Below, piece after piece: positions 8,041 to 29,714 of a stretch of DNA of 43,452 bases. Source of the DNA: Micromonosporaceae bacterium (lineage in GTDB: Bacteria; Actinomycetota; Actinomycetes; Mycobacteriales; Micromonosporaceae); the NCBI GenBank assembly GCA_016926535.1, contig JAFGOK010000100.1, forward strand, positions 1-43,452. The letters run 5' to 3'. The notes beneath the pieces were generated by a model. That model was not told the origin of the DNA and ran no database searches. It saw only the letters and a program-made list of their open reading frames with translations. Position 1 is the first letter of the stretch. The number at the start of each line of letters is the position of its first letter. A program made the translations under genes and the position numbers.

Positions 8041-8140
8041 TCTCGTGCTTAACGTTCTGACGACTCTGCGGTCATATGTTCGTGCACATGCGACCGGCGT
8101 CGTCGAGGCAATCGAACCATGGTGCGGCATACCCGATGGT

Positions 8141-8176
8141 GATCCCACCGGTGGGCATCTCACCACCGGTGGGATC
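8141..8176. promoter_or_regulatory. Perfect 14-bp inverted repeat, probable operator
   Basis: GATCCCACCGGTGG and CCACCGGTGGGATC are exact reverse complements separated by 8 nt. Each arm itself holds the palindrome CCACCGGTGG, so there are two copies of the palindrome 18 bp apart on the same face of the helix. It lies about 100 bp upstream of the ATP-grasp 2 start, in the 295-nt gap after the class III aminotransferase gene. There is no T-tract on either strand, which argues against an ordinary terminator and for an operator of a dimeric regulator, though an RNA hairpin cannot be excluded. Confidence 0.55.
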
Positions 8177-8335
8177 AGGCGCAATGTGGTACAGGACCAC
8201 CGCCGAGAACCCTACCACGGTACGGCGTCGGTGAGCGGTCATCGTGATTTGCACATGGGTCGGCATTAATGATTATCAATCGAAACGGATGCCAGAGACA
8301 CTGTCATCAGCAGGGATCTGTGACAATGTCTTATG

Positions 8336-9716: not shown

Positions 9717-10406
9717 ATGACCATTCGAGTGCTCATCTGCGACGAGCTGCCGGTTATTAGGGACGGCTTGCGGACGCTGCTCGATTCCGTGTCGTGCATC
9801 GACGTGATCGACACGACCGATGACGGCATGGATGCCATCGCCCTGACGCGGGCCGCACGACCCGATGTCGTGGTCACCGATCTGAACCTGCGGATCATTT
9901 CCGGCCTGGAAATGATCCGCAGACTCGGCAAAGAGGACGCACCGCCCAACTTCGTGGTTTTCACCAGATCCGTCGGCGACGATACGGTCAGCGACGTGCT
10001 GCACGCCGGCGCCAGCTGTCTGTTGGGAAAGGACGCGAGCCCGCAGGAGCTGGTGGACGCGATTCGGGCGGCGGCCGCCGGCCGGACCCTGCTCGCGTCG
10101 GACGTCGTGCAACGTCTGGTCACCTGGTTCCGTGCGCAGTCGGACACCCGGGAGTTCGCGCCGTGCCCGGAGTTGACCGAACTCACTCCGCGGGAGCGGG
10201 ACGTGACCCAGATGGTGGCGTGGGGCATGTCCATCGAGGAGGTTGCCCGCGAGCTGACCATCGGGGTGGCCACGGTCCGTACCCATCTCTACCGGGTGTG
10301 CACCAAGCTCGGCGTGCGCGACCGCGCGCAACTCGTGTCACTGGCCTACCAGTCTGGACTCATCCAGCCGGTGGAACGCACCCGCGGCGGTGAGCGGTCC
10401 CGATAG
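9717..10406 (+). CDS. NarL/FixJ-type response regulator (receiver + LuxR HTH)
   Basis: This 229-aa protein has an N-terminal receiver domain with acidic D9/E10, phospho-acceptor D55 in VVVTDLN, T83 and K105, all in canonical spacing, so it appears able to be phosphorylated. The C-terminal LuxR/NarL helix-turn-helix is LTPRERDVTQMVAWG...VATVRTHLYRVCTKLGV. The ATG at 9717 is chosen over the in-frame start at 9642 because the latter lies in the promoter/operator region. No histidine kinase gene is in the window, so it is an orphan here. It probably controls part of the cluster, perhaps through the repeat in its own leader. Confidence 0.85.
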   Translation: MTIRVLICDELPVIRDGLRTLLDSVSCIDVIDTTDDGMDAIALTRAARPDVVVTDLNLRIISGLEMIRRLGKEDAPPNFVVFTRSVGDDTVSDVLHAGASCLLGKDASPQELVDAIRAAAAGRTLLASDVVQRLVTWFRAQSDTREFAPCPELTELTPRERDVTQMVAWGMSIEEVARELTIGVATVRTHLYRVCTKLGVRDRAQLVSLAYQSGLIQPVERTRGGERSR

Positions 10407-18704: not shown

Positions 18705-18981
18705 GTGACCTCCGTGGTAGCGCTGCTGATTGACCAGACGGCACAGGTGAATTGCCGTGCTGGACGGCATGGTACGGGGATGTCGACGCCAGGCGCGTCC
18801 GCGACAGGTTCATTGACTGGGACGCATCACGTTGACGCTGTGCTTCGGTGTTGCGTGTTTCGCTTACCCGACCAAGTGTCGTCGATGCCTCGCGCTTGAC
18901 CCGTTTTCGGCCACCTGCCACGGTGATTCTCCGCTCGTTTCGCCCGGCTGCGCCAGCCGCACCAGTGGAAATGGAGAGATC

Positions 18982-19713
18982 ATGGAGCAGATGCCAGATC
19001 GGATACCGGTGATCGCACTATGGAGTGCGCCGCGCTGCCGGTCTACCGCTTTCGCACGGATGATGGCCGAGAGAGGCGACCGCGTCGTGGTGCACGAGCC
19101 GTTATCTCAGGTGGTCGATTTCGGCGAGGTGAAGGTCGACGACCGAATCGCGCACACCGAGCATGACGTACTCGCCGCGCTGCGTGCCATCGCGGCGGAG
19201 AAGCCCGTGTTCTTCAAGGACACCACGGACTTCCATTACCCGGGACTGCTCGCCGATCAGGCATTTCTGGCAGCCGCGACACACACGTTCATCATCCGAC
19301 ACCCTGCCGAGGCCATTGCGTCGCACTACCTGCTCAATCCGGACCTCGGGCGTGACGAGATCGGCTTCGCCCGGTTGCATGAGATCTTCAACGCCGTCCT
19401 GGTCGCCACGGGCACCACACCCGTCGTGATTGACGCAGACGACCTGGTGGACCGGCCAGCCGATACCGTGCGGGCATACTGCTCTGCGGTGGGCATCCCC
19501 TTTGTGCCGGATGCGCTGAGCTGGCAGTCGGGCATGCGACCGGAATGGCAGGCGACCGGTCGGTGGCACGAGTCGACCAGCAGTACCGTCGGCTTCACCC
19601 GGACCACGGACGGGCGGGTTGAGGTGGTCACAGAGAATCCGGTGCTGCGGGCCTACTGCGATTACCACCTTCCGTACTACGAGCAGTTGCGCACCGTAGC
19701 GCTTCGGCCGTGA
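18982..19713 (+). CDS. PAPS-dependent sulfotransferase
   Basis: This 243-aa protein has the 5'-phosphosulfate binding loop as WSAPRCRSTAFARMM (17-24 core) and the 3'-phosphate binding segment IRHPAEAIASHYLL, the two hallmarks of cytosolic sulfotransferases. The ATG at 18982 after GGAGAG is preferred; the track ORF starts 150 nt earlier without an RBS. It stands alone, divergent from lysX. In ficellomycin, vazabitide and azinomycin pathways a hydroxyl next to the amine is sulfonated to make the leaving group for aziridine closure; this enzyme fits that step, with PAPS supplied through CysD/CysN. It carries an in-frame TTA codon at 19102-19104, a possible bldA control point. Confidence 0.85.
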   Translation: MEQMPDRIPVIALWSAPRCRSTAFARMMAERGDRVVVHEPLSQVVDFGEVKVDDRIAHTEHDVLAALRAIAAEKPVFFKDTTDFHYPGLLADQAFLAAATHTFIIRHPAEAIASHYLLNPDLGRDEIGFARLHEIFNAVLVATGTTPVVIDADDLVDRPADTVRAYCSAVGIPFVPDALSWQSGMRPEWQATGRWHESTSSTVGFTRTTDGRVEVVTENPVLRAYCDYHLPYYEQLRTVALRP

Positions 19714-19898
19714 TCACCGCACGGTCCCCATGGTTCTCCGGATCGAGATGGCTCGCCCCGATTGGACAGTAGGGACAAGGCCGAGAATTGCGTAAATCGA
19801 CCCGGGGGCGGGCAGTCGCCTTCATGAGCGAATCGGGAACTCGTGTTGTCTTCACGACCTCGTCGTTCTCGCCGCTTATCCGCTTTGGACATGATTCG

Positions 19899-20261
19899 CT
19901 AGACGCCGTAGACGGCGAAGGCGTCGGCGCGGTCATGCAGTCCACGGCGGGCGTGTGCGATGTTCGCCCCTGCCGCAAATCGGATCGTGCTGATCGACAG
20001 GTTACGGAAGGTTGCCAGGAGCACCAGAATCACCCGCCGTCGGTGCCGTTGCCCGCGCGGGTCGCGGAGGTCGGGAACCTGCGCCAACCGGGTCACCAGG
20101 CCCGACGACACCTGGTTGGGGTCGGTGGCGAGTTCGGCTTCCCACATGGCCAGGTCGGCTAGGTGCCCAGCAGCGGGGTTGACCGGCGAAGATGTCGACC
20201 CGGGCACGGCTCCTGAACACGATTCTCTGGCGTAGACAACCTGAGGATCGGCAGAAGTCAT
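19899..20261 (-). pseudogene. ISAs1-family transposase remnant with large internal deletion
   Basis: The minus-strand frame joins an ISAs1-type N terminus (LAQVPDLRDPRGQRHRRRVI) directly to an ISAs1-type C terminus (LLATFRNLSISTIRFAAGANIAHARRGLHDRAD...YGV). About 250 residues that carry the DDE catalytic core in full-length elements are missing, so this is an in-frame internally deleted, inactive remnant of about 120 aa. It lies in the 786-nt gap between the sulfotransferase and the StrR-like regulator. The rest of that gap (19714-19898 and 20262-20499) shows no gene. Two small inverted repeats before the regulator (CTCACG/CGTGAG at 20395-20413; CGGCTT/AAGCCG at 20425-20443) could be regulatory. 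Confidence 0.7.
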
Positions 20262-20499
20262 GCTCGTTTGCCACTTTGCGGCAAGAAAAGTGTTTTCGCC
20301 GCGAAACCGATCAAAAAGTGAGAACAACCGGGTCATGGTGTTGTATTCGGCTCTGCCGATGGATACTCTGCGCCAAGCGGGGATTCTGAACGACCTCACG
20401 TTACGCGCGTGAGCAGTCGTTAAGCGGCTTTTACCAGAAGCCGGCGTGCAGTCTTGCCCCGTTCGGGAGTGACTACGTCGACTCACACGGAGAGAGCCA

Positions 20500-21582
20500 G
20501 TGGCAGGACACGTGATCGAGCAATCCCTGGTGGATCACACGGCGAATGGACAAGCGAGTAATGCCGCACTTGGGCCATTGTGTCCGTGCGGCGCGGAGGA
20601 GTCGGAGATACGCCAAGTGCCGATTCACTCGCTCTATGCTGCTGACTCACCGAGATTGGGCGGCGAGAATCCCGAACATACCCGGATACTGATGAAGGCG
20701 CAGGTTGAGTTGCCGCCCATCATTGTGCATCGGCAGACAATGCGGGTGATCGATGGAATGCATCGCCTTCGGGCCGCGCTTCTCGCTGAACGGGAAACGA
20801 TCGCGGTCCGGTTTTTCGACGGCAGCGTGGAGGACTCGTTCATCCAGGCGGTCGTGGCGAACAGCAAGCACGGACTGCCACTCTCGCTGGCCGATCGCAA
20901 GGCCGCCGCCGCTCGAATCGTCTCATCCCATCCACATTGTTCAGACCGATCAATAGCGGCCATTACCGGCCTTGCGCCGAAGACCGTCGGGGTCATCCGC
21001 CAGCTCGACGATGCCGGAGCGGCGACGGTGACCCGGATTGGCCGTGACGGCAGGGTGCGATCCTTGAACACCGTCGAACGGCGTCGTGTGGCGAGCGAAA
21101 TGATCACCCGACGGCCGGACGTCTCGCTTCGCACGGTCGCCCGGGAGGCCGGGATATCTCCGGCGACAGCTCGTGATGTGCGGGACAAGATGCGCGCGGA
21201 GGGGCGGTCACAACGGTCGGACGGGACGTTCCAGTCGCCGTCGCAGAAGGATCAGGGCCCGGAGCGCCCGGACCGGGAAAACGACCGCAGCCGTCGATCC
21301 GGGATACGCGACAAGACGGCTGTACTGGGCGGCCTCATGCGCGACCCGTCACTGCGGTTCACCGAATCGGGGCGGGCGTTGCTGCGCTGGCTGGTGTCAC
21401 GAACCGGCGGGCCGGAGGGGTGGAGCGAGTTCGTCGGCACGATCCCGCCGCACTGCCTGTACCAGCTTGCGGATCTTGCCAGGGCGTGTGCGACAGAATG
21501 GTTGCAGCTCGCCGATGACCTGGAGCAACGGACTGGGAAGACAGAGCCCATGGGATCAGTCGGCAGGTGTGCAACTGAGTAA
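20500..21582 (+). CDS. StrR/ParB-like pathway-specific transcriptional activator
   Basis: This 360-aa protein belongs to the StrR/NovG group of antibiotic activators, related to ParB. Its N-terminal ParB-type block (VPIHSLYAADSPRLGGENPEHTRIL, LPPIIVHRQTMRVIDGMHRLRAA, VRFFDGSVEDSFIQAVVANSKHGLPLSLADR) is followed by a helix-turn-helix (SDRSIAAITGLAPKTVGVIRQ) and a second HTH-like stretch (VSLRTVAREAGISPATARDV). GTG at 20500 is preceded by GGAGAG. Members bind GTTCRACTG-N11-CRGTYGAAC sites. Such a site overlaps its own stop codon, upstream of the aziridine operon, so it probably activates that operon. Confidence 0.85.
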   Translation: MAGHVIEQSLVDHTANGQASNAALGPLCPCGAEESEIRQVPIHSLYAADSPRLGGENPEHTRILMKAQVELPPIIVHRQTMRVIDGMHRLRAALLAERETIAVRFFDGSVEDSFIQAVVANSKHGLPLSLADRKAAAARIVSSHPHCSDRSIAAITGLAPKTVGVIRQLDDAGAATVTRIGRDGRVRSLNTVERRRVASEMITRRPDVSLRTVAREAGISPATARDVRDKMRAEGRSQRSDGTFQSPSQKDQGPERPDRENDRSRRSGIRDKTAVLGGLMRDPSLRFTESGRALLRWLVSRTGGPEGWSEFVGTIPPHCLYQLADLARACATEWLQLADDLEQRTGKTEPMGSVGRCATE

Positions 21583-21600
21583 AGGAGTCAGTTGCACACC
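21566..21600. promoter_or_regulatory. StrR/NovG-type operator (perfect 13-bp inverted repeat, N11 core spacing); could also act as terminator
   Basis: GGTGTGCAACTGA (21566-21578) and TCAGTTGCACACC (21588-21600) are exact reverse complements. The inner part is GTGCAACTG, 11 nt, CAGTTGCAC, which equals the StrR/NovG consensus GTTCRACTG-N11-CRGTYGAAC except for one symmetric change in each arm. The stop codon of the StrR-like gene lies in the spacer. The site is about 175 bp upstream of the long biosynthetic operon. There is no U-tract after it, so an operator is more likely than a Rho-independent terminator, though the hairpin would be stable. Confidence 0.65.
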
Positions 21601-21705
21601 CCAGATCTACACCCACGCGCGCGGTGGAGCCCGGGAATCCCGTTGTCCCTGAGTTCACTCAATACGTCAAAACATCAATTCGGACATTTACGGTAACCAT
21701 TATGC

Positions 21706-21736
21706 TGACGACCGGGGCGAATTGGTGACCTAGACT
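21706..21736 (+). promoter_or_regulatory. Candidate promoter of the AziU2-to-amidinotransferase operon
   Basis: TAGACT at 21731-21736 fits the actinomycete -10 pattern TAGRRT. A weak -35 (TGACGA, 21706-21711) lies 19 nt upstream, which is long. The poor -35 would suit a promoter that needs an activator bound at the nearby StrR-type site. Confidence 0.35.
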
Positions 21737-21775
21737 GTCGCGATCGAACATCACTTCAGTGAGAGGGCTCACTTG

Positions 21776-22366
21776 ATGGATATATCGGTGACCTCTGTCA
21801 TTACCCGATTCTGTGATCCGGTCGACATCTCCGATCACCGAAACAACACGGCCATTTCAGCGGCAACGAAGACCGAACTGGGACATTTCAATGTCTGGGG
21901 AAACTCGCTCGCCGCCGAGTACCTGCCGGCGGGTGGAAGTCTGGTCCACGTGGCCGGCATTCCGTTTCAATTCCCTCCGGTATGCGACGGACCAGACAAT
22001 ATCCGTTGCGCCGGGCAGTCTCTCAGAGTGTCGACGGGTCGTTACGACTGGATGCACGTGCTGGCGGCGGCGGAACGACGCTGTGAGGACATTGTTGAGC
22101 TAAGCTTCGTCGACGGCTCGGTCGACGCGGAAACACTGCGCGTCTCCGACTTCTGGGCCGCGCCCGCGTGGTTCGGTGAACTCAAGGCGTTTGAAAGCCC
22201 GGTCATGCACTATCCGCACCATGTGCAGCGGTTCGTTCCCGCGGTTATGTGGGCACAGCGAGTGCCGGTAACTCGGCGCGCCGATCTGACTGGTATCCGA
22301 CTGCCTCGCAACATCGCGATGCATGTCTTCGCGGTCACCCTCCAGCGGACGGAGGCCACGGCATGA
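21776..22366 (+). CDS. Unknown small protein, candidate AziU2-like subunit of the aziridine-forming enzyme
   Basis: This 196-aa protein has no motif of a common enzyme family that I can recognise, no signal peptide and no membrane segment. ATG at 21776 follows GAGAGGG at 8 nt. Its stop overlaps the start of the 350-aa next gene (ATGA), suggesting a heteromeric complex. In vazabitide (Vzb10/11) and azinomycin (AziU3/U2) the aziridine is formed by sulfate elimination by a two-protein enzyme unlike known families. The size, pairing and context here (sulfotransferase, PAPS genes, LysW set) make this the best candidate for the small subunit. The assignment rests on context, not on a visible motif. 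Confidence 0.55.
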   Translation: MDISVTSVITRFCDPVDISDHRNNTAISAATKTELGHFNVWGNSLAAEYLPAGGSLVHVAGIPFQFPPVCDGPDNIRCAGQSLRVSTGRYDWMHVLAAAERRCEDIVELSFVDGSVDAETLRVSDFWAAPAWFGELKAFESPVMHYPHHVQRFVPAVMWAQRVPVTRRADLTGIRLPRNIAMHVFAVTLQRTEATA

Positions 22367-23415
22367 GCACCGACCGACAGCCACAGACGTTCATGATCAC
22401 CGGATCCGAACCCGAGTTGTGGTATCGCGACCTGATCAGCTGCCTTCAGGCCACGTTCGGCTCGCTGTTGATCCGGGAGGGCATCGATCCACTGACCGTG
22501 CTCGGCGCGGGCTGGCGATTCCTGCACCTGCCCGGTGACGTCAGGTCCGAGGAGTTCTACTACCCGTGTGAGCCGGACGAGTCCGGCAACACCGACGTAG
22601 GTGCCGCGCTAGCACCGCACCACGACCTGCACTCGCGCTGGTGGTGCCCTGCCGATACGAACGACCTCTGGCGGGAGGTGCGTGACACGCTGGCCGACGA
22701 CCGATTGGTGATCGCCGCGGTGGACAACTTCCACCTGCCGTTCCGGCCAGCCTACAGCGACGTGCACGCCGCGCACCTCGTGGTGGTATACGGCCTGGAT
22801 GAGGTCCGCGGACTGGTGTACGTCTCGGACGCGATGCCGCCCGCGTTCTGCGGAGTCATCCCGATCGAGGTGTTCTCCCGCAGCTGGGGTTCGGCCAACC
22901 CGACCGACGTCCAGGACGCGTTCTTCAGTGACTCGCAGATCGGCCGGCGCTGCCTCGACGTCCGCCTCTCCGCCAAACCTCCCGTACTGACGCCCGAGTT
23001 GCTCGGCGAATTCCTGCGCGTCAACGTCACCGCCTTCACCACGGCGACCTCGGCGCGCACCGGTCTCGCTGGATTCGGCGAGTTCGCCGCCGAACTCCTC
23101 AACCGGTGCCGTGCCGGCGACGTCACCGTGTTGCGTGAGCTGTACCCGTTCGGCTGGGGCATGCAGGCGCAGGCATCGTTGCACGGGGAACTGCTGCGTC
23201 GCTGCGGTCATGAATGGAGTGACCCGGTGCTTGCCGGGGCTGGCCGGGCGGTCGAAACCGTCGCGCACGCGTGGACCGGACTCCGGATCACCGGCGCGCA
23301 CGGGGTCGACGATCCCGGTGCGGTCTTCGCCGATATCGCGCACCACGTCACGGTGCTGGCCGGTGCGTATGCGAGTGCGGTCGACGCCGTGGGCGCGGCG
23401 GCGGAGCGACTGTGA
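22363..23415 (+). CDS. BtrH-N-like protein, candidate AziU3-like subunit of the aziridine-forming enzyme
   Basis: This 350-aa protein starts with a region resembling the BtrH N-terminal (papain-like) fold: [28 protein letters not shown], then [38 protein letters not shown]. Cys27, His138 and Asp156 fall where a papain-like catalytic set would sit. The C-terminal third is helical and Ala/Leu-rich, without recognised motifs. It overlaps both its neighbour upstream (ATGA) and the region of the aminotransferase start downstream (GTGA). By pairing and context it is the candidate large subunit of an AziU3/U2- or Vzb10/11-type aziridine synthase. An acyltransferase or carrier-release role like BtrH is the alternative. 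Confidence 0.6.
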
Positions 23416-23459
23416 CCGCACGACGGTTCGATCGCCGTGACCATGTCGAGAGGACAGTG

Positions 23460-24755
23460 ATGGGCAAACTGGCAGCGTTTGGCGGCCCTGCCGCCGTACC
23501 GAGGAACCGGCGCCGCGTGGACTGGCCGGTGATCGAGGACGCGGACCGCAAGGCCGTCATCGACGCACTCGACGGCGGCAGACTAGTGTCCAACACGGAT
23601 GGAACGAACCCGGTCTCCACCCTGGAGGAGCACTGGGCGCACCGGTTCGGCTTTGAGCACTGCGTTGCGGTGTCCACAGGCACCGCGGCACTGTCTCTCG
23701 CGCTGGCCGCAATCGGAATCGGGCCGGGCGACGAGGTGATCGTGCCCGCGCTCAGCTTCATCGCCACGGGGCTGGCGCCAGTGCACCAGATGGCCGTTCC
23801 GGTGTTCGCGGACATCGATCCGGTCACGTTCAACCTCGACCCGAACGACGTGGAGCGTCGGATCACTCCCCGGACCGCGGCGATCATTCCGGTGCACCTG
23901 CACGGTGCGCCGGCCGATATGGATCGACTGATCAGCATCGCCCGCAAGCACAGCCTCGCCGTGGTTGAGGACGCCGCGCAGGCCCCCGGGGCGACCCATC
24001 GTGGTCGGTCGGTCGGCGGGATCGGCGACGTGGGTGCGTTCAGCCTTCAGACCACCAAGAACATCCCCACCTGTGGTGAAGGCGGCCTGCTGGTGACCAG
24101 CGATGCCGAGTTGGCCCAGTCGATGCGCAGGGGACGGCAGTTCGGCGAAGTGATCGAGAGCGGCCGCGAGCGTGACTACGTGTCCTACGGCCTCGGCTGG
24201 AATCACAAGATGAACGCTGTCCAAGCCGCGTTCACCGACGCCCAGCTCACTCGGTTCGACGACTACGAATGCGCGCGACAACGCAACATCACCGAGTTTC
24301 TGGCGCGACTTGCGATGCTGCCCGGCTTGCAGGTGCCGACCGCCCGCCCGGAGACCACGCACGTCTGGCACATCCTGCGGTTCCGGTTCGACCCCGCCGC
24401 GTTCGATCTGGACCCGGTACGCTCGGAGGCCCTGCGCTCAACCCTGCGGCGGCTGCTGCGCGCCGAGGGCGTTCCGATGTCGCAGTACCAGCTCATGCCG
24501 CTGCCCGACCAGAAGGTGTTCGTCGATCGGATCGGGTTCGGCGCCGGCTACCCATGGTCGGTGATCGGCACCCCTGAACCGGTCAAGGATTCGGACTACC
24601 CGGTGACCCGCACGGTTATCGCCGACTCGCTGACCCTCCAGAAGCGCCATCTCCATCCGGGCTCAGGCGATCTCCTTTGCCGCTACGCGGACGCCTTCGA
24701 GAAGGTGTGGGCTAACGCCGACCTGGTGACCACACTCGTGGCGGCCGCGTCATGA
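23460..24755 (+). CDS. DegT/DnrJ/EryC1-type PLP aminotransferase (C6 amination of the C7 chain)
   Basis: This 431-aa fold-type I aminotransferase is of the DegT/AHBA-synthase/StsC group: [42 protein letters not shown], the PLP-stacking EDAAQAPGA (D171) and the Schiff-base region [16 protein letters not shown] (K200). ATG at 23460 follows GAGAGGA; a GTG at 23412 in the same frame overlaps the previous stop and would add 16 residues. It is followed by the split transketolase. Expected role: transamination of the 6-keto group formed by C2 transfer, giving LysW-bound DADH. The stop and next start overlap (ATGA). Confidence 0.88.
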
Positions 24756-25594
24756 CCGGCGTCCAGGTCCCAGTGCGAGACACCCTGGAATCTCTCGCCG
24801 CACGCATCCGCTCGCACGTCGTCAACATGTGTGCTGGGCCGGAAGGTGGCCATCTCGGCGGCGCGCTGTCATGCATTGAGGTGCTCACCGCACTGTACTT
24901 CTCGGTGCTCAAGGTGGACCCGCAGCGGTCGGACGACCCGGCACGCGACCGCTTTCTGCTCAGCAAGGGCCACGCCGCCATTGCCCTGTACGCGACGCTG
25001 GCCGAGCGGGGTTTCCTTCCGGTCGAGGAACTCGCCGGATACGGACGGCCTGGCAGCAGGCTGATGGGTCATCCGGTCCGCGCGGTGCCCGGTGTGGAGT
25101 TGCCGACCGGGTCGCTCGGCCACGGTCTCGCGCTCGCCTGCGGGCTCGCTCTGGCCGCCCGATACGCCGGCCGTGACTCGCGCAGCTTCGTGCTGCTGGG
25201 CGACGGCGAACTCCAGGAAGGTTCGGTGTGGGAGGCTGCCATCGCGGCCGCGTCGCTCCGGCTGGACCGGCTGGTGGCCGTGGTGGACCGCAACGGCCTT
25301 CAGCTGACCGGTCCGACCGAGCGGATCGCGCCGATGGAGCCGATGGCAGAACGCTGGCGCGCCTTCGGCTGGGCGGTCCGAGACGTCGATGGGCACGACC
25401 TTCCCCAGCTGGCAGATCACCTCGCCGCAGCACCGTGGGAACCTGGTCGGCCGAGCGTTCTGATCGCCCGCACGGTCAAGGGCCATGGACTTCCGTTCCT
25501 CGCCGGTCGGGCAGCCAATCACTATGTGACGCTGTCGCCGCGCAACCACGCGCGGGCCATCGACGCGTTGCACAGCACGGACGCCGTCCGATGA
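24752..25594 (+). CDS. Transketolase-like, N-terminal (TPP-binding) subunit
   Basis: This 280-aa protein equals the N-terminal half of transketolase: [55 protein letters not shown] and the TPP motif GDGELQEG (150-157) ending in VVDRN. With the next gene it forms a split transketolase, as in vazabitide biosynthesis, where the pair transfers a two-carbon ketol unit to LysW-bound glutamate semialdehyde to make the C7 skeleton. The start overlaps the aminotransferase stop and the stop overlaps the start of the C-terminal subunit (both ATGA). Confidence 0.9.
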
Positions 25595-26559
25595 ACCGGG
25601 CGACCCGGGATGCCTACCGGGACTGTCTGCTGCCCTTGCTGAATCAGCATCCCGATCTGATCTGCCTGGACACAGACACCGGTCTGTTCGGTGCGCAGTT
25701 CGCCGCGGCAGCTGGCGACCAGTACCTGAACCTCGGCATCGCCGAGCACAACCTGATGGGTATCGCGGCCGGACTGGCCGCGGGCGGGCGAATGCCCTTC
25801 GTCAACACGATGGCCAGCTTCGCCGCATGCAGGGCGCTGGAGGCAATCAAGATCGACATTGCTTACAACCAGCTGCCGGTCCGTATCATGGCCACCCACG
25901 GTGGTCTCGCCGCCGGTCACCTCGGTCCGACGCACCAGGCCTTGGAGGACTTGGCCGTGCTTCGGGTACTGCCGGGCATGACGGTGGTGGTGCCGGTCGA
26001 CGCCGCCGCCACGGTGGCCTTCGTCAAGCAGAGCCTGGGTCTTGCTGGACCGCTCTACGTGCGACTCGGCCGTAAACCGTCGCCACCGCTGCCAGTGCTC
26101 CCCGCTCCGGTCATCGGGCAGGCTCAGACGCTGCGACAGGGTGCGGAGGTGCTGCTCGCGTGTTGCGGCCCGTTCGCGGTGCTCGGGTGCCTCACCGCAG
26201 CGGGAGCGCTCGCCGAACAGGGCATTGAAGCCACCGTACTGAACGTGCACACCCTTCGGCCGCTCGACACGGCGACCCTGGTCGCTGCGGCGCAACCGGC
26301 CACCCTTGTGGTGACGGTGGAAGAGCACTGGCGCGCGGGCGGTCTCGGGGGAGCGGTGGCCGAAGCACTGGCGGAGGCGGAGCCCAGGAAAGTGCTCAGG
26401 CTGGGCATGCCGGACCACTTCGTTGACGCCGTCGGCAGCCAGGAGTATCTCGTCACGCACTACGACCTCACCGCGGAGCGGGTCGTGAGGACGGTCAGCA
26501 CCGCTCTCGACAGCGCGGCCCGCTCCGGGACGATCAATCGAAAGGACCCAACGACATGA
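25591..26559 (+). CDS. Transketolase-like, C-terminal (pyrimidine-binding) subunit
   Basis: This 322-aa protein carries the pyrimidine-binding and C-terminal transketolase domains: LNLGIAEHNLMGIAAGLAAGG with the Glu that activates TPP, ATHGGLAAGHLGPTHQALEDLAVLRVLPGM, and a C-terminal domain with VTVEEHWRAGGLGGAVAEAL. It completes the split enzyme. The long ORF-track start at 25228 is a shadow; ATG 25591 overlaps the previous stop. Its own stop overlaps the lysW ATG, so carrier and C2-transfer enzyme are coupled, in line with a carrier-bound acceptor. Confidence 0.9.
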   Translation: MNRATRDAYRDCLLPLLNQHPDLICLDTDTGLFGAQFAAAAGDQYLNLGIAEHNLMGIAAGLAAGGRMPFVNTMASFAACRALEAIKIDIAYNQLPVRIMATHGGLAAGHLGPTHQALEDLAVLRVLPGMTVVVPVDAAATVAFVKQSLGLAGPLYVRLGRKPSPPLPVLPAPVIGQAQTLRQGAEVLLACCGPFAVLGCLTAAGALAEQGIEATVLNVHTLRPLDTATLVAAAQPATLVVTVEEHWRAGGLGGAVAEALAEAEPRKVLRLGMPDHFVDAVGSQEYLVTHYDLTAERVVRTVSTALDSAARSGTINRKDPTT

Positions 26560-26729
26560 CCACAGTGCACATCTGTCCGAAGTGCGAGGACCAGGTTCAG
26601 ATCAGCCAACCAGCGCGACTCAATGAGATCGTCGAGTGCGCCGGCTGCCACTGCGAGCTGGAGATCGTGGCGCTGAATCCGCCGGTGCTGGCTCTCGCAC
26701 CCGAGGTCGAAGAGGACTGGGGGGAGTAG
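26556..26729 (+). CDS. lysW: LysW-type amino-group carrier protein (AmCP)
   Basis: This 57-aa protein was below the ORF-track cutoff. Near the N terminus it has CPKC and CAGC, the four-Cys zinc site of LysW, followed by an acidic tail ending in EEDWGE. The C-terminal EDWGE is the LysW signature; the gamma-carboxyl of the last Glu forms the isopeptide bond to the alpha-amino group of the cargo. It begins within the stop of the transketolase C-subunit (ATGA) and precedes lysY and lysZ. It protects the amino group and presents the side chain to LysZ, LysY, the transketolase and the aminotransferase. Its presence in a secondary-metabolite operon is what identifies the pathway. Confidence 0.95.
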   Translation: MTTVHICPKCEDQVQISQPARLNEIVECAGCHCELEIVALNPPVLALAPEVEEDWGE

Positions 26730-26769
26730 TGGCCGGCTACGCAGGCACGTCATTGACCGGGTCCTGGTC

Positions 26770-27795
26770 GTGATCCGGGTTGTGGTGGTCGGCGCGGCCG
26801 GCTACATCGGTGGGGAACTGCTGCGACTGCTGATCGGTCATCCCGAGGTCGAGACAGTGGCCGCGGTGTCTTCCCGCTTCCCTGGCAGGCGGGTCGATGG
26901 CGTGCATCCGAATTTGCGATCAGCCACCGACCTGCTGTTCTGCTCGGCCGACGACGTGGAAGAGTGCGACACGGCATTCCTAGCCCTGCCGCACCGCACC
27001 GCCATGGCCCAGATCGACCGCTGGATCGCAAGGGCCAAGCAGGTCATTGACCTCACCGGGGACTTCCGGTTGGGCGATCCAGAGGTATATCGGCGCTACT
27101 ACGGGAGCGAGCATGTCGCAACGCACCTAATCGACGCCTTCGTTCCCGGCATACCCGAACTACACCGGGAGAGTCTGCGCAGCGCCGATCTGATCAGTGT
27201 GCCTGGCTGCGTGGCGATGGCGGGCGTGCTCGCGTTGTACCCGCTGGCGGTGCGAGGTCTGGTCGAGCCGACGGCCCAGTTCGACGCGCGCACCGGCTCC
27301 AGCGGCTCCGGTGCCACGGCAGGTGCGGCGAATCTGCACTCCGTACGTAGCGGAGCGATGCGGGTGTTCGCACCGACTGGGCACCGGCACGAGGCGGAGA
27401 TCTCTCGACACCTCGGCATCGCAGCCGCGATGACCGCGACCGGAGTCGAAGCGGTACGAGGTGTGCAAACGATCTGCCACGCCACGCTGCGCCCCGATGT
27501 GGACACGTCGGCGGTGCGGAGAGCATTTCGCGAGCAGTACCGCAACGAGCCATTCGTCCGTCTGGTCGCCCACCAGCGTGGCAACTTCCGCTACCCCGAA
27601 CCGAAGATTTTGGTGGGATCGAACTTCTGCGATGTCGGATACGCCGTCGACGAGGAGGCCGGACGGCTGGTGACGATTGCGGCCCTGGACAACCTGATGA
27701 AGGGCGGTGCGGGCAATGCGGTCCAGTGCCTGAACATCCGGATGGGCTGGCCGGAGACTCTCGGCCTGTCCTTCCCCGGTCTGCATCCCATCTAG
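26770..27795 (+). CDS. LysY/ArgC-like LysW-acyl-phosphate reductase
   Basis: This 341-aa protein is of the ArgC/LysY family: N-terminal NADP fold VVVGAAGYIGGELLRLLIGHPEVE, ALPHRTAM, VIDLTGDFRL and the active-site Cys in SVPGCVAMAG (C147), with GSSGSGATAG and HRHEAEIS in the catalytic part. It reduces the LysW-linked gamma-glutamyl phosphate to the semialdehyde. GTG at 26770 is the first plausible start after lysW, 40 nt downstream. It is followed by the kinase gene. The ArgC-like rather than arginine-operon assignment follows from the lysW neighbour. Confidence 0.9.
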   Translation: MIRVVVVGAAGYIGGELLRLLIGHPEVETVAAVSSRFPGRRVDGVHPNLRSATDLLFCSADDVEECDTAFLALPHRTAMAQIDRWIARAKQVIDLTGDFRLGDPEVYRRYYGSEHVATHLIDAFVPGIPELHRESLRSADLISVPGCVAMAGVLALYPLAVRGLVEPTAQFDARTGSSGSGATAGAANLHSVRSGAMRVFAPTGHRHEAEISRHLGIAAAMTATGVEAVRGVQTICHATLRPDVDTSAVRRAFREQYRNEPFVRLVAHQRGNFRYPEPKILVGSNFCDVGYAVDEEAGRLVTIAALDNLMKGGAGNAVQCLNIRMGWPETLGLSFPGLHPI

Positions 27796-27817
27796 GCCCC
27801 AGTGAACTGGAGACACC

Positions 27818-28660
27818 ATGGCCACCAGACCGCTGATCGTCGTCAAGTGCGGCGGGAACCCTGTCGTCGACGCCGCGGGAGTCTGCGCCGACGTAGCCGG
27901 GCTCGTTGGACGGGGACAGCCTGTGCTCCTGGTGCACGGGGGTTCCGGTGAGATCGCACGACTGGCGGCGAGACTCGGCATCCCGCAACGGACCCTGGTC
28001 GCCCCGGACCAGGTGTCCACCAGGTACACCGACCCGGCGACGCTGGAGGCGGTCATCCTCGCGCTGGCCGGTGCTGTCAAACCCAGGATCGTCGCGGAGC
28101 TGTCCCGGCTCGGGGTGCCGGCGGTCGGTCTCACCGGCTTGGACGGCGGCATGCTGCGTGCTCGCCGCAAGTCTGTCGTGCGCTCCGTTGTGGATGGTCG
28201 AAAGACGCTGGTGAGGGACAATTTGAGCGGTCGGCTCAGCGAGGTCGACACCACGCTGGCAAAGACCCTGCTGCGGTGCGGCTTCGTACCGGTGATCTCG
28301 CCACCAGCGATCGACGAGTGTGGTCACCCGGTGAACGTCGATGCCGACCGGGTGGCGGCAGCGCTCGCTGTGGCACTCGGCGCCGGTCATTTGGTGCTGC
28401 TGACCGGAGCACCGGGGGTACTTGCCAATTCGGAAGACGAGAGCAGCGTCTTGGGCGGTTACCAGGTGCCGATGGCCGGTGCGCCTGGCCGGTTCGCCGG
28501 AGGTGGCATGGCACTCAAGCTCGTTGCGGCCCGAGAGGCTTTGACCGGCGGCGTGCCGTCGGTGTGCATAGCGGACGGCCGGGTGTCTGACCCGGTCAGT
28601 CGGGCACTTGCCGGATCCGGGACCGCGGTCACCATGGCCCGCGTACAGCTTTCAGCATGA
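27818..28660 (+). CDS. LysZ/ArgB-like LysW-amino acid kinase
   Basis: This 280-aa amino acid kinase of the ArgB/LysZ group has VKCGGNPVVDAAG, LVHGGSGEI for ATP and substrate, PRIVAELSRLGVPAVGLTGLDGGML, and the C-terminal ATP site LLTGAPGVLAN with GGMALKLVAAREAL. It phosphorylates the side-chain carboxylate of the LysW-bound amino acid. ATG 27818 follows GGAGA. It lies 22 nt after lysY and 13 nt before the amidinotransferase. No argJ, argD or argF is present, which rules out an ordinary arginine operon. Confidence 0.9.
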   Translation: MATRPLIVVKCGGNPVVDAAGVCADVAGLVGRGQPVLLVHGGSGEIARLAARLGIPQRTLVAPDQVSTRYTDPATLEAVILALAGAVKPRIVAELSRLGVPAVGLTGLDGGMLRARRKSVVRSVVDGRKTLVRDNLSGRLSEVDTTLAKTLLRCGFVPVISPPAIDECGHPVNVDADRVAAALAVALGAGHLVLLTGAPGVLANSEDESSVLGGYQVPMAGAPGRFAGGGMALKLVAAREALTGGVPSVCIADGRVSDPVSRALAGSGTAVTMARVQLSA

Positions 28661-28673
28661 GAGGAGCAGTCAG

Positions 28674-29714
28674 GTGAGCTTGGTCAATGTGTATACGGAA
28701 TGGGATCCGCTTGAGGAGATCATTGTTGGAACGATGGCCGGCGCACGGGTGCCAATCGCAGACCGGAGTCTTATTGCCACGGAATACCCGGACCTCAACG
28801 ACCCACAGCAGATTCCCTCCGGACCGTTTCCCGGTCAGGTGGTCGAGGAGACCGAGGCCGAGCTCGCCGAGCTGGCGAACATTCTTACCGATCTCGGCGT
28901 GACCGTACGACGACCCGGCGGTCGTGATCATAAGTCGATGGTGTCCACTCCGGATTGGAGCACGGACGGGTTCTACGACTACTGTCCCCGGGACGGATTT
29001 CTCGCCGTCGGCGACTCGATCATCGAAACACCGATGGTGCTGCGGTCACGGTTCCTCGAGGGGTTCGCCTACAAGGAACTGTTCCTGGAGTACCTCGAAA
29101 GCGGTGCGCGCTGGCTCTCGGCGCCCAAGCCACAGTTGACCGACGACATGTACGAGCCGGGCGCGCCGGCGGGGCAGCGGCTGCGCAATCTGGAACCGGC
29201 CTTCGACGCGGCGAATGTGCTCAGGTTCGGTACGGATCTGCTGTACCAGGTCTCTGACAGCGGAAACGCACTCGGCGCGCGCTGGCTCCAGTCGGCCCTG
29301 GGCGAGCAGTACACCGTGCATCCGTGTGAGAACCTGTACACGGACACCCACATCGACTCGACCTTGGTGCCGCTGCGTTGCGGGTTGGTGCTGGTGAACC
29401 CGGCCCGAGTCAATGACGACAACATGCCGGCGTTCCTGCGCGACTGGGACCGGGTGGTCTGTCCGGAACTGGTGGACACCGGCTTCGTCGGTGACCACCC
29501 GAGGTCCTCGGTGTGGATCGGAATGAACTTCCTGGTCGTCGCGCCCGGGAAGGCTGTTGTGGACAAGCGACAGCTGGAGCTCATCCGGGTGCTGGAACGT
29601 CACGGCGTGGAAGTGATCCCAGCGCAGCTCACCCACACCAGAACCCTAGGCGGTGGCTTCCACTGCGTGACGCTGGACGTGCGCCGTGCTGGTGAGCTTG
29701 CCACATACCGGTAG
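28674..29714 (+). CDS. Amidinotransferase, StrB-like (L-arginine:amine amidinotransferase)
   Basis: This 346-aa enzyme is close to inosamine-phosphate amidinotransferase: VNVYTEWDPLEEIIVGT at the N terminus, TPDWSTDGFYDYCPRD, EPAFDAANVLRFG, HPCENLYTDTHIDST and the catalytic Cys in LGGGFHCVTLD (C331), with Asp and His of the triad in place. It moves the amidino group from arginine to an amine to make a guanidine. GTG 28674 after GAGGAG is the start, not the ORF-track 28608. It is the last gene of the long operon and is followed by a strong hairpin. It suggests that the product carries a guanidino group, as ficellomycin does on its bicyclic ring. Confidence 0.92.
   Translation: MSLVNVYTEWDPLEEIIVGTMAGARVPIADRSLIATEYPDLNDPQQIPSGPFPGQVVEETEAELAELANILTDLGVTVRRPGGRDHKSMVSTPDWSTDGFYDYCPRDGFLAVGDSIIETPMVLRSRFLEGFAYKELFLEYLESGARWLSAPKPQLTDDMYEPGAPAGQRLRNLEPAFDAANVLRFGTDLLYQVSDSGNALGARWLQSALGEQYTVHPCENLYTDTHIDSTLVPLRCGLVLVNPARVNDDNMPAFLRDWDRVVCPELVDTGFVGDHPRSSVWIGMNFLVVAPGKAVVDKRQLELIRVLERHGVEVIPAQLTHTRTLGGGFHCVTLDVRRAGELATYR

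Follow-up and report, generated by a model that had tools for sequence, protein, structure and literature searches.

A cluster of a Micromonosporaceae bacterium (assembly GCA_016926535.1, contig JAFGOK010000100.1) carries a palindrome across the end of a StrR-like regulatory gene and shortly ahead of an operon, which raises the question of whether this palindrome is an operator, which protein it belongs to and which genes it serves. The stretch of 43,452 nucleotides analysed here (hereafter the window) contains upstream genes for LysX-type and LysW-hydrolase-type proteins, an NRPS module and a sulfotransferase, as well as the putative operon, which encodes, in this order, a 197-aa protein, a BtrH_N protein, a DegT aminotransferase, two transketolase halves, a semialdehyde dehydrogenase, an amino-acid kinase and an ADI-like protein (Table 1). 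The cluster genes fit what we take to be a carrier-protein-borne azabicycle pathway of the azinomycin/vazabitide type. The first-pass annotation had described a perfect repeat at the stop codon, one symmetric base per arm off the family consensus and with a spacer of 11, and had read it as the StrR/NovG-type operator of the adjacent StrR-like gene in front of the aziridine operon. The described geometry proved exact, and the reading is strongly supported by spacer counts across the family, by matrix scores and by comparison with sister clusters.

Table 1. Features of the regulator-operator locus (positions in the window)
Feature	Position	Strand	Remark
Sulfotransferase gene	18832..19713	+	directly before the 21773 gene in sister clusters
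Interval absent from seven sister clusters	19714..21757	.	
ISAs1-type transposase remnant	19902..20192	-	directly upstream of the StrR-like gene; middle deleted
StrR-like regulator P0001, 360 aa	20500..21582	+	
Full inverted repeat, perfect	21566..21600	.	13-bp arms, 9-nt loop
Core operator GTGCAACTG-N11-CAGTTGCAC, probably StrR family, GTGC subtype	21569..21597	.	
Stop codon TAA of the StrR-like regulator	21580..21582	+	inside operator spacer
Probable -10 TAGACT of the aziridine operon	21731..21736	+	aligned with TAGATT in sister clusters
Putative aziridine (azabicycle) operon	21773..29714	+	extent inferred from orientation

The palindrome and its core

The arms of the full repeat (arm 1, 21566-21578, GGTGTGCAACTGA; arm 2, 21588-21600, TCAGTTGCACACC) comprise 13 nt each, are 100% complementary and stand 9 nt apart. 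Nested within them, the StrR-type core reads GTGCAACTG-AGTAAAGGAGT-CAGTTGCAC, in which the spacer measures exactly 11 and the consensus GTTCRACTG-N11-CRGTYGAAC is missed at two positions in total, one symmetric base per arm. Each arm fits the founding consensus GTTCRACTG at 8/9 positions, the remaining one being a G at position 3, a position that varies family-wide (T, G, C, A) and is C in Dbv4/Bbr. The spacer region (21580-21594) also contains TAAAGGAG, a ribosome-binding-like stretch over the stop codon that is followed by a TTG opening a frame of ~34 codons, probably by chance. Other long perfect inverted repeats of the window, at 8140-8177 and 9888-9922, have 15-bp arms with loops of 8 and 5 and are unrelated in sequence to the operator.

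Operator class across homologous regulators

The core was sought in 79 loci of regulator homologs and ten from related genomes (89 in all), in which gene starts were taken as the longest ORF and locus counts are inflated by closely related loci. The core GTNCRA-N17-TYGNAC occurs 74 times in the 89 loci, as opposed to 2-10 matches at any one of the other spacers between 9 and 27. Likewise, the 9-bp arms, scored by a matrix, give 83 matches at spacer 11 in the 79 loci and at most six at any of the remaining spacers between 3 and 21. By a matrix of 29 columns that was trained on homolog loci with the window left out, the window operator reaches 30.7 bits, whereas reversed control DNA (1.8 Mb) tops out at 16.4 bits; in 217 kb of related operon loci, fetched regardless of StrR, the maximum is 11.8 bits. 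The preference for spacer 11 and the matrix score across homolog loci thus strongly support, on comparative grounds, the assignment of 21569-21597 to the StrR-family operators.

Regulators outside the training set (L119-L144) mostly carry a site of at least 20 bits in their 4-kb loci, and exact copies of the window arms are present among them. In the A40926 cluster the matrix match GTCCAG-N17-TTGGAC (16.6 bits) fits the published Dbv4 consensus (PMC6022936), and on a plasmid, a cluster that includes a StrB1-type amidinotransferase has a site of 40.7 bits within its regulator gene. On the other hand, 46/107 homologous regulators lack a site of at least 18 bits near their gene; L004/L020, the closest homolog of P0001 by identity (55%), shows none within 20 kb. 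The loci of the first 20 relatives yielded no site and were at first considered as an argument against the operator class, but in the larger sample only part of the family is without a site.

Within the window, 0.21 matches to the consensus at three or fewer mismatches are expected on both strands, and the operator is the only place observed. A second window site at 2459 was discarded as a loose core match inside an ORF with no matrix support. The whole-genome scan proposed by the first-pass annotation as a check was run by pattern searches only and returned one convincing site in the 4.94 Mb of the genome (82% complete): nowhere else are the operator's arms matched with two or fewer mismatches, one other place has three, and the operator is the sole perfect match to the family consensus. 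Extra genome sites at 2-3 mismatches to the family consensus were rejected, being no commoner than in the reversed control (103 vs 109). Moreover, P0001 is the only StrR-like gene found in this genome at 82% completeness. That the sole StrR-like gene adjoins the sole convincing site argues for the operator of that very regulator, and the palindrome is very probably its own binding site.

The regulator P0001 and its relation to known systems

P0001 comprises a ParB-like N domain, a helix-turn-helix region, a beta hairpin, a second tri-helical HTH and C-terminal helices. It reaches no curated cut-off of Pfam or NCBIfam and so is unnamed there, with weak Pfam HTH matches at 193-236. An AlphaFold2 model (mean pLDDT 79.7; about 90-97 across residues 31-120) places short strands at 179-180 and 186-187 and helices at 191-204, 210-217 and 221-236, and ParB, Noc and KorB head its PDB matches (E 2e-6). 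StrR has a tri-helical HTH preceded by two short strands (189-230; PMC10886168), and as far as the model goes, the architecture of P0001 is the one described there. The protein is homologous to a StrR-like protein encoded beside vanY-N in Nonomuraea gerenzanensis (E 2.6e-75). Judging from the neighbouring gene and the make-up of the dbv cluster, the latter is most likely Dbv4. In the ParB-like domain, residues 85-89 and 121-133 form invariant DGxHR and N..HG.xL motifs, which resemble nucleotide-binding motifs of ParB/sulfiredoxin-fold proteins, also among the fold matches.

The StrR operators of the streptomycin clusters are cited in PMC8306873 as GTTCGActG(N)11CagTcGAAc. The window operator shares with these the 9-bp arms, the exact 11-bp spacer and the location in an antibiotic cluster with a StrR-like gene, but differs by G for T at arm position 3, symmetrically in both arms, by A for G at arm position 5, by its place over the regulator's stop codon and by the pathway. 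The Bbr/Dbv4 operators of glycopeptide clusters, GTCCAR(N)17TTGGAC (PMC6022936), have the 6-N17-6 geometry of the window operator, whose half-sites are GTGCAA instead of GTCCAR. Also similar are the GTGCAAC-type operators of L119, L091, L144, L054, L055, L057, L068, L062 and L095, which share the arm subtype, a cognate-looking regulator and an Arg at the R225 position. The 9-bp arms of L119, L091 and L144 are identical to those of the window, although several operators of this type lie inside or upstream of the regulator gene, not at the stop codon, and in other clusters.

In a tree of the 61 regulators with sites, the neighbours of P0001 are L119/L120, L091 and L038, a placement that is not firmly supported; L119 and L091, the nearest on this weakly supported placement, carry exactly GTGCAACTG..CAGTTGCAC. 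An Arg at the R225 position of the recognition helix is present in 13/13 regulators with symmetric GTGC operators (window included), compared with 8/33 of those with GTTC (Fisher 2e-6). When kinship is allowed for, three independent supported pairs are left, all in the expected direction (p 0.25). As a specificity determinant, R225 was therefore not retained, the striking raw counts losing significance once kinship is counted, and the R225-GTGC match of regulator and operator is suggestive only.

Probable joint insertion of regulator and operator

Seven syntenic sister clusters exist in the family (L165-L171), in which most proteins are 65-88% identical and some of which have fewer genes conserved. 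Neither a StrR-like gene nor the operator was found in any of these seven. In the sister clusters a short intergenic region, of greater length in L171, lies between the sulfotransferase gene and the 21773 ortholog; in the window the distance is ~2 kb. DNA similarity to the sister clusters ends at 19713-19722 and resumes at 21758-21813, with weak promoter similarity from about 21684. The transposase remnant within the interval matches residues 4-63 (67%) and 394-432 (72%) of a 432-aa relative. The simplest expectation, an operator conserved across orthologous operons, was given up on its absence in 7/7. Since seven sister clusters are devoid of both elements and the window holds both in an interval of ~2 kb, regulator and operator look like they arrived together as one inserted cassette. 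This is the economical reading of the alignments, the alternative being their loss in all seven relatives.

The promoter of the aziridine operon

The operator centre (21583) lies ~150 bp upstream of the probable -10. A consensus scan yielded no sigma-70-type promoter. The good -10 and poor -35 had been taken by the first-pass annotation to denote an activator-dependent promoter. However, the -10, along with a GGTAAYCA element upstream of it, is aligned in L168, L170 and L171, which are clusters without regulator or operator. Because the promoter predates the insertion of the regulator, the poor -35 cannot count as evidence for StrR dependence. Upstream of the 21773 ortholog, the same three clusters feature an inverted repeat, GATTACC...GGTAATC, with its halves ~40 bp apart, which is possibly the operator of another, older regulator; at about 21690-21705 the window retains only the right half, GGTAACC.

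Operator placement across the family

Placement was counted for 107 non-identical regulators at a threshold of at least 18 bits at the own gene, which 61/107 reach. The operator lies upstream of the gene in 17 regulators, inside the gene, 485-596 nt before the stop, in 28, and at the stop codon (-12 to +43; within 45 nt) in 12, the class of the window; five more have it further downstream of the stop, so that 17 lie at or after the stop. These upstream, inside and stop places are nearly exclusive (one overlap vs 11.6 expected, by a statistic that ignores kinship). The operator of L038 overlaps its stop codon as well. In those loci of the stop-codon class that were inspected, a reading frame in the same orientation comes next, within about 30-550 bp (ORFs uncurated).

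The intragenic operators (L037, L045, L050, L054-L059, L064, L065, L068, L074, L078, L080, L084-L088, L093, L099, L104, L106, L119, L120, L144, L177) lie, in 28/28 cases, in one frame, in the linker that precedes the beta hairpin and the second HTH. The two arms vary in concert at position 3 (T/T in 20, G/G in seven, T/C in one, with no T/G mix) and mostly match at position 5 (A/A in 15, G/G in 10, mixed in three), and the residues encoded by the arms covary as S..N or A..H. Given this concerted variation, conservation of the protein is ruled out as the sole reason for the intragenic sites. A survey of binding sites in biosynthetic clusters reported that they are rare in coding sequence, and it reported none in terminator regions (PMC12527672). 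No description of the three-place pattern was found in the open-access literature, though an operator within strR itself may already be known.

Probable function and competing explanations

In our judgement it is highly probable that the palindrome serves the StrR-like regulator as its operator, that gene and operator were co-inserted and that StrR-type control was thereby imposed on the cluster. Bound as a dimer, the regulator would contact both GTGCAACTG half-sites through its second helix-turn-helix. Gene and operator would have been inserted jointly, behind the sulfotransferase gene and ahead of a promoter that the aziridine operon already possessed. The most likely form of the resulting control is that 21773-29714 is activated from a distance of about 150-160 bp, and the regulator gene may itself be subject to feedback. 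By comparison across loci, the operator class, its link to the regulator family and the joint absence from the sister clusters are evident at the sequence level; P0001 itself would presumably be the protein that binds. Since known StrR-like proteins activate biosynthesis genes (PMC10886168), activation of the operon is, by analogy, the likeliest role.

A StrR-family operator could also serve mainly as feedback on the regulator gene, by autoregulation or as a road-block, with the aziridine operon driven independently by its old promoter, a reading to which we give a real but minor chance. It would accord with the single operator per regulator locus family-wide, with the three nearly exclusive positions, 28 of them inside coding sequence, with the -10 that sister clusters keep in the absence of any operator, and with Bbr, which reportedly binds upstream of its own gene and regulates it (PMC6022936). 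It is opposed by the activator function of the known StrR-like proteins and by the co-directional frame next to the stop-codon class, as expected if the next operon is activated.

A role of the hairpin in terminating transcription of the regulator gene, with the resemblance to an operator being secondary or accidental, appears very unlikely. As RNA, the perfect 13-bp stem at the gene end would attain about -23.6 kcal/mol, the window holds other long perfect inverted repeats, and, compared with the other classes, stop-codon sites have slightly stronger hairpins and more GGT/ACC pairing at their flanks, by which a double role as terminator and operator is conceivable. However, hairpin strength does not differ clearly between placement classes, no T-run follows the stem (next bases CCAGATCTACACCCACGCGC), and the hairpin is absent from the terminator-scan output. 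An intrinsic terminator was hence rejected, the more so as conserved arms with a spacer of exactly 11 are also present within coding sequence and ahead of genes, positions in which a terminator would serve no purpose. A chance palindrome is a practically negligible option, for although two-copy inverted repeats of at least 10 bp are common in this DNA, this one far exceeds the matrix maximum of the 1.8 Mb control and adjoins the genome's only StrR-like gene.

If the preferred reading of a co-inserted activator and operator holds, the locus offers a well-defined system, with a single site, in which to test a StrR-like regulator of an aziridine cluster, and this cluster, having acquired regulator and operator jointly, can be compared with seven natural clusters that have neither. 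In addition, the family-wide placement pattern would aid target prediction in silent clusters, and it poses the question of what role an operator plays inside the regulator's own coding sequence.

A more far-reaching and distinctly doubtful idea is that StrR-like regulators are KorB/ParB-like clamps, whose N domain would bind a nucleotide, close, load at the palindrome and slide to promoters. The N-terminal domain and the next helices of the P0001 model match those of ParB, Noc and KorB, which are CTP-dependent DNA clamps, but overall TM-scores are low and the operators differ. If true, such a clamp would account for the fact that an operator can be tolerated upstream of the regulator gene, within it (about 500 bp from its start) or at its stop codon. 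It would likewise account for the ability of regulator and operator to travel as an independent unit to a place ahead of any operon, as appears to have occurred here.
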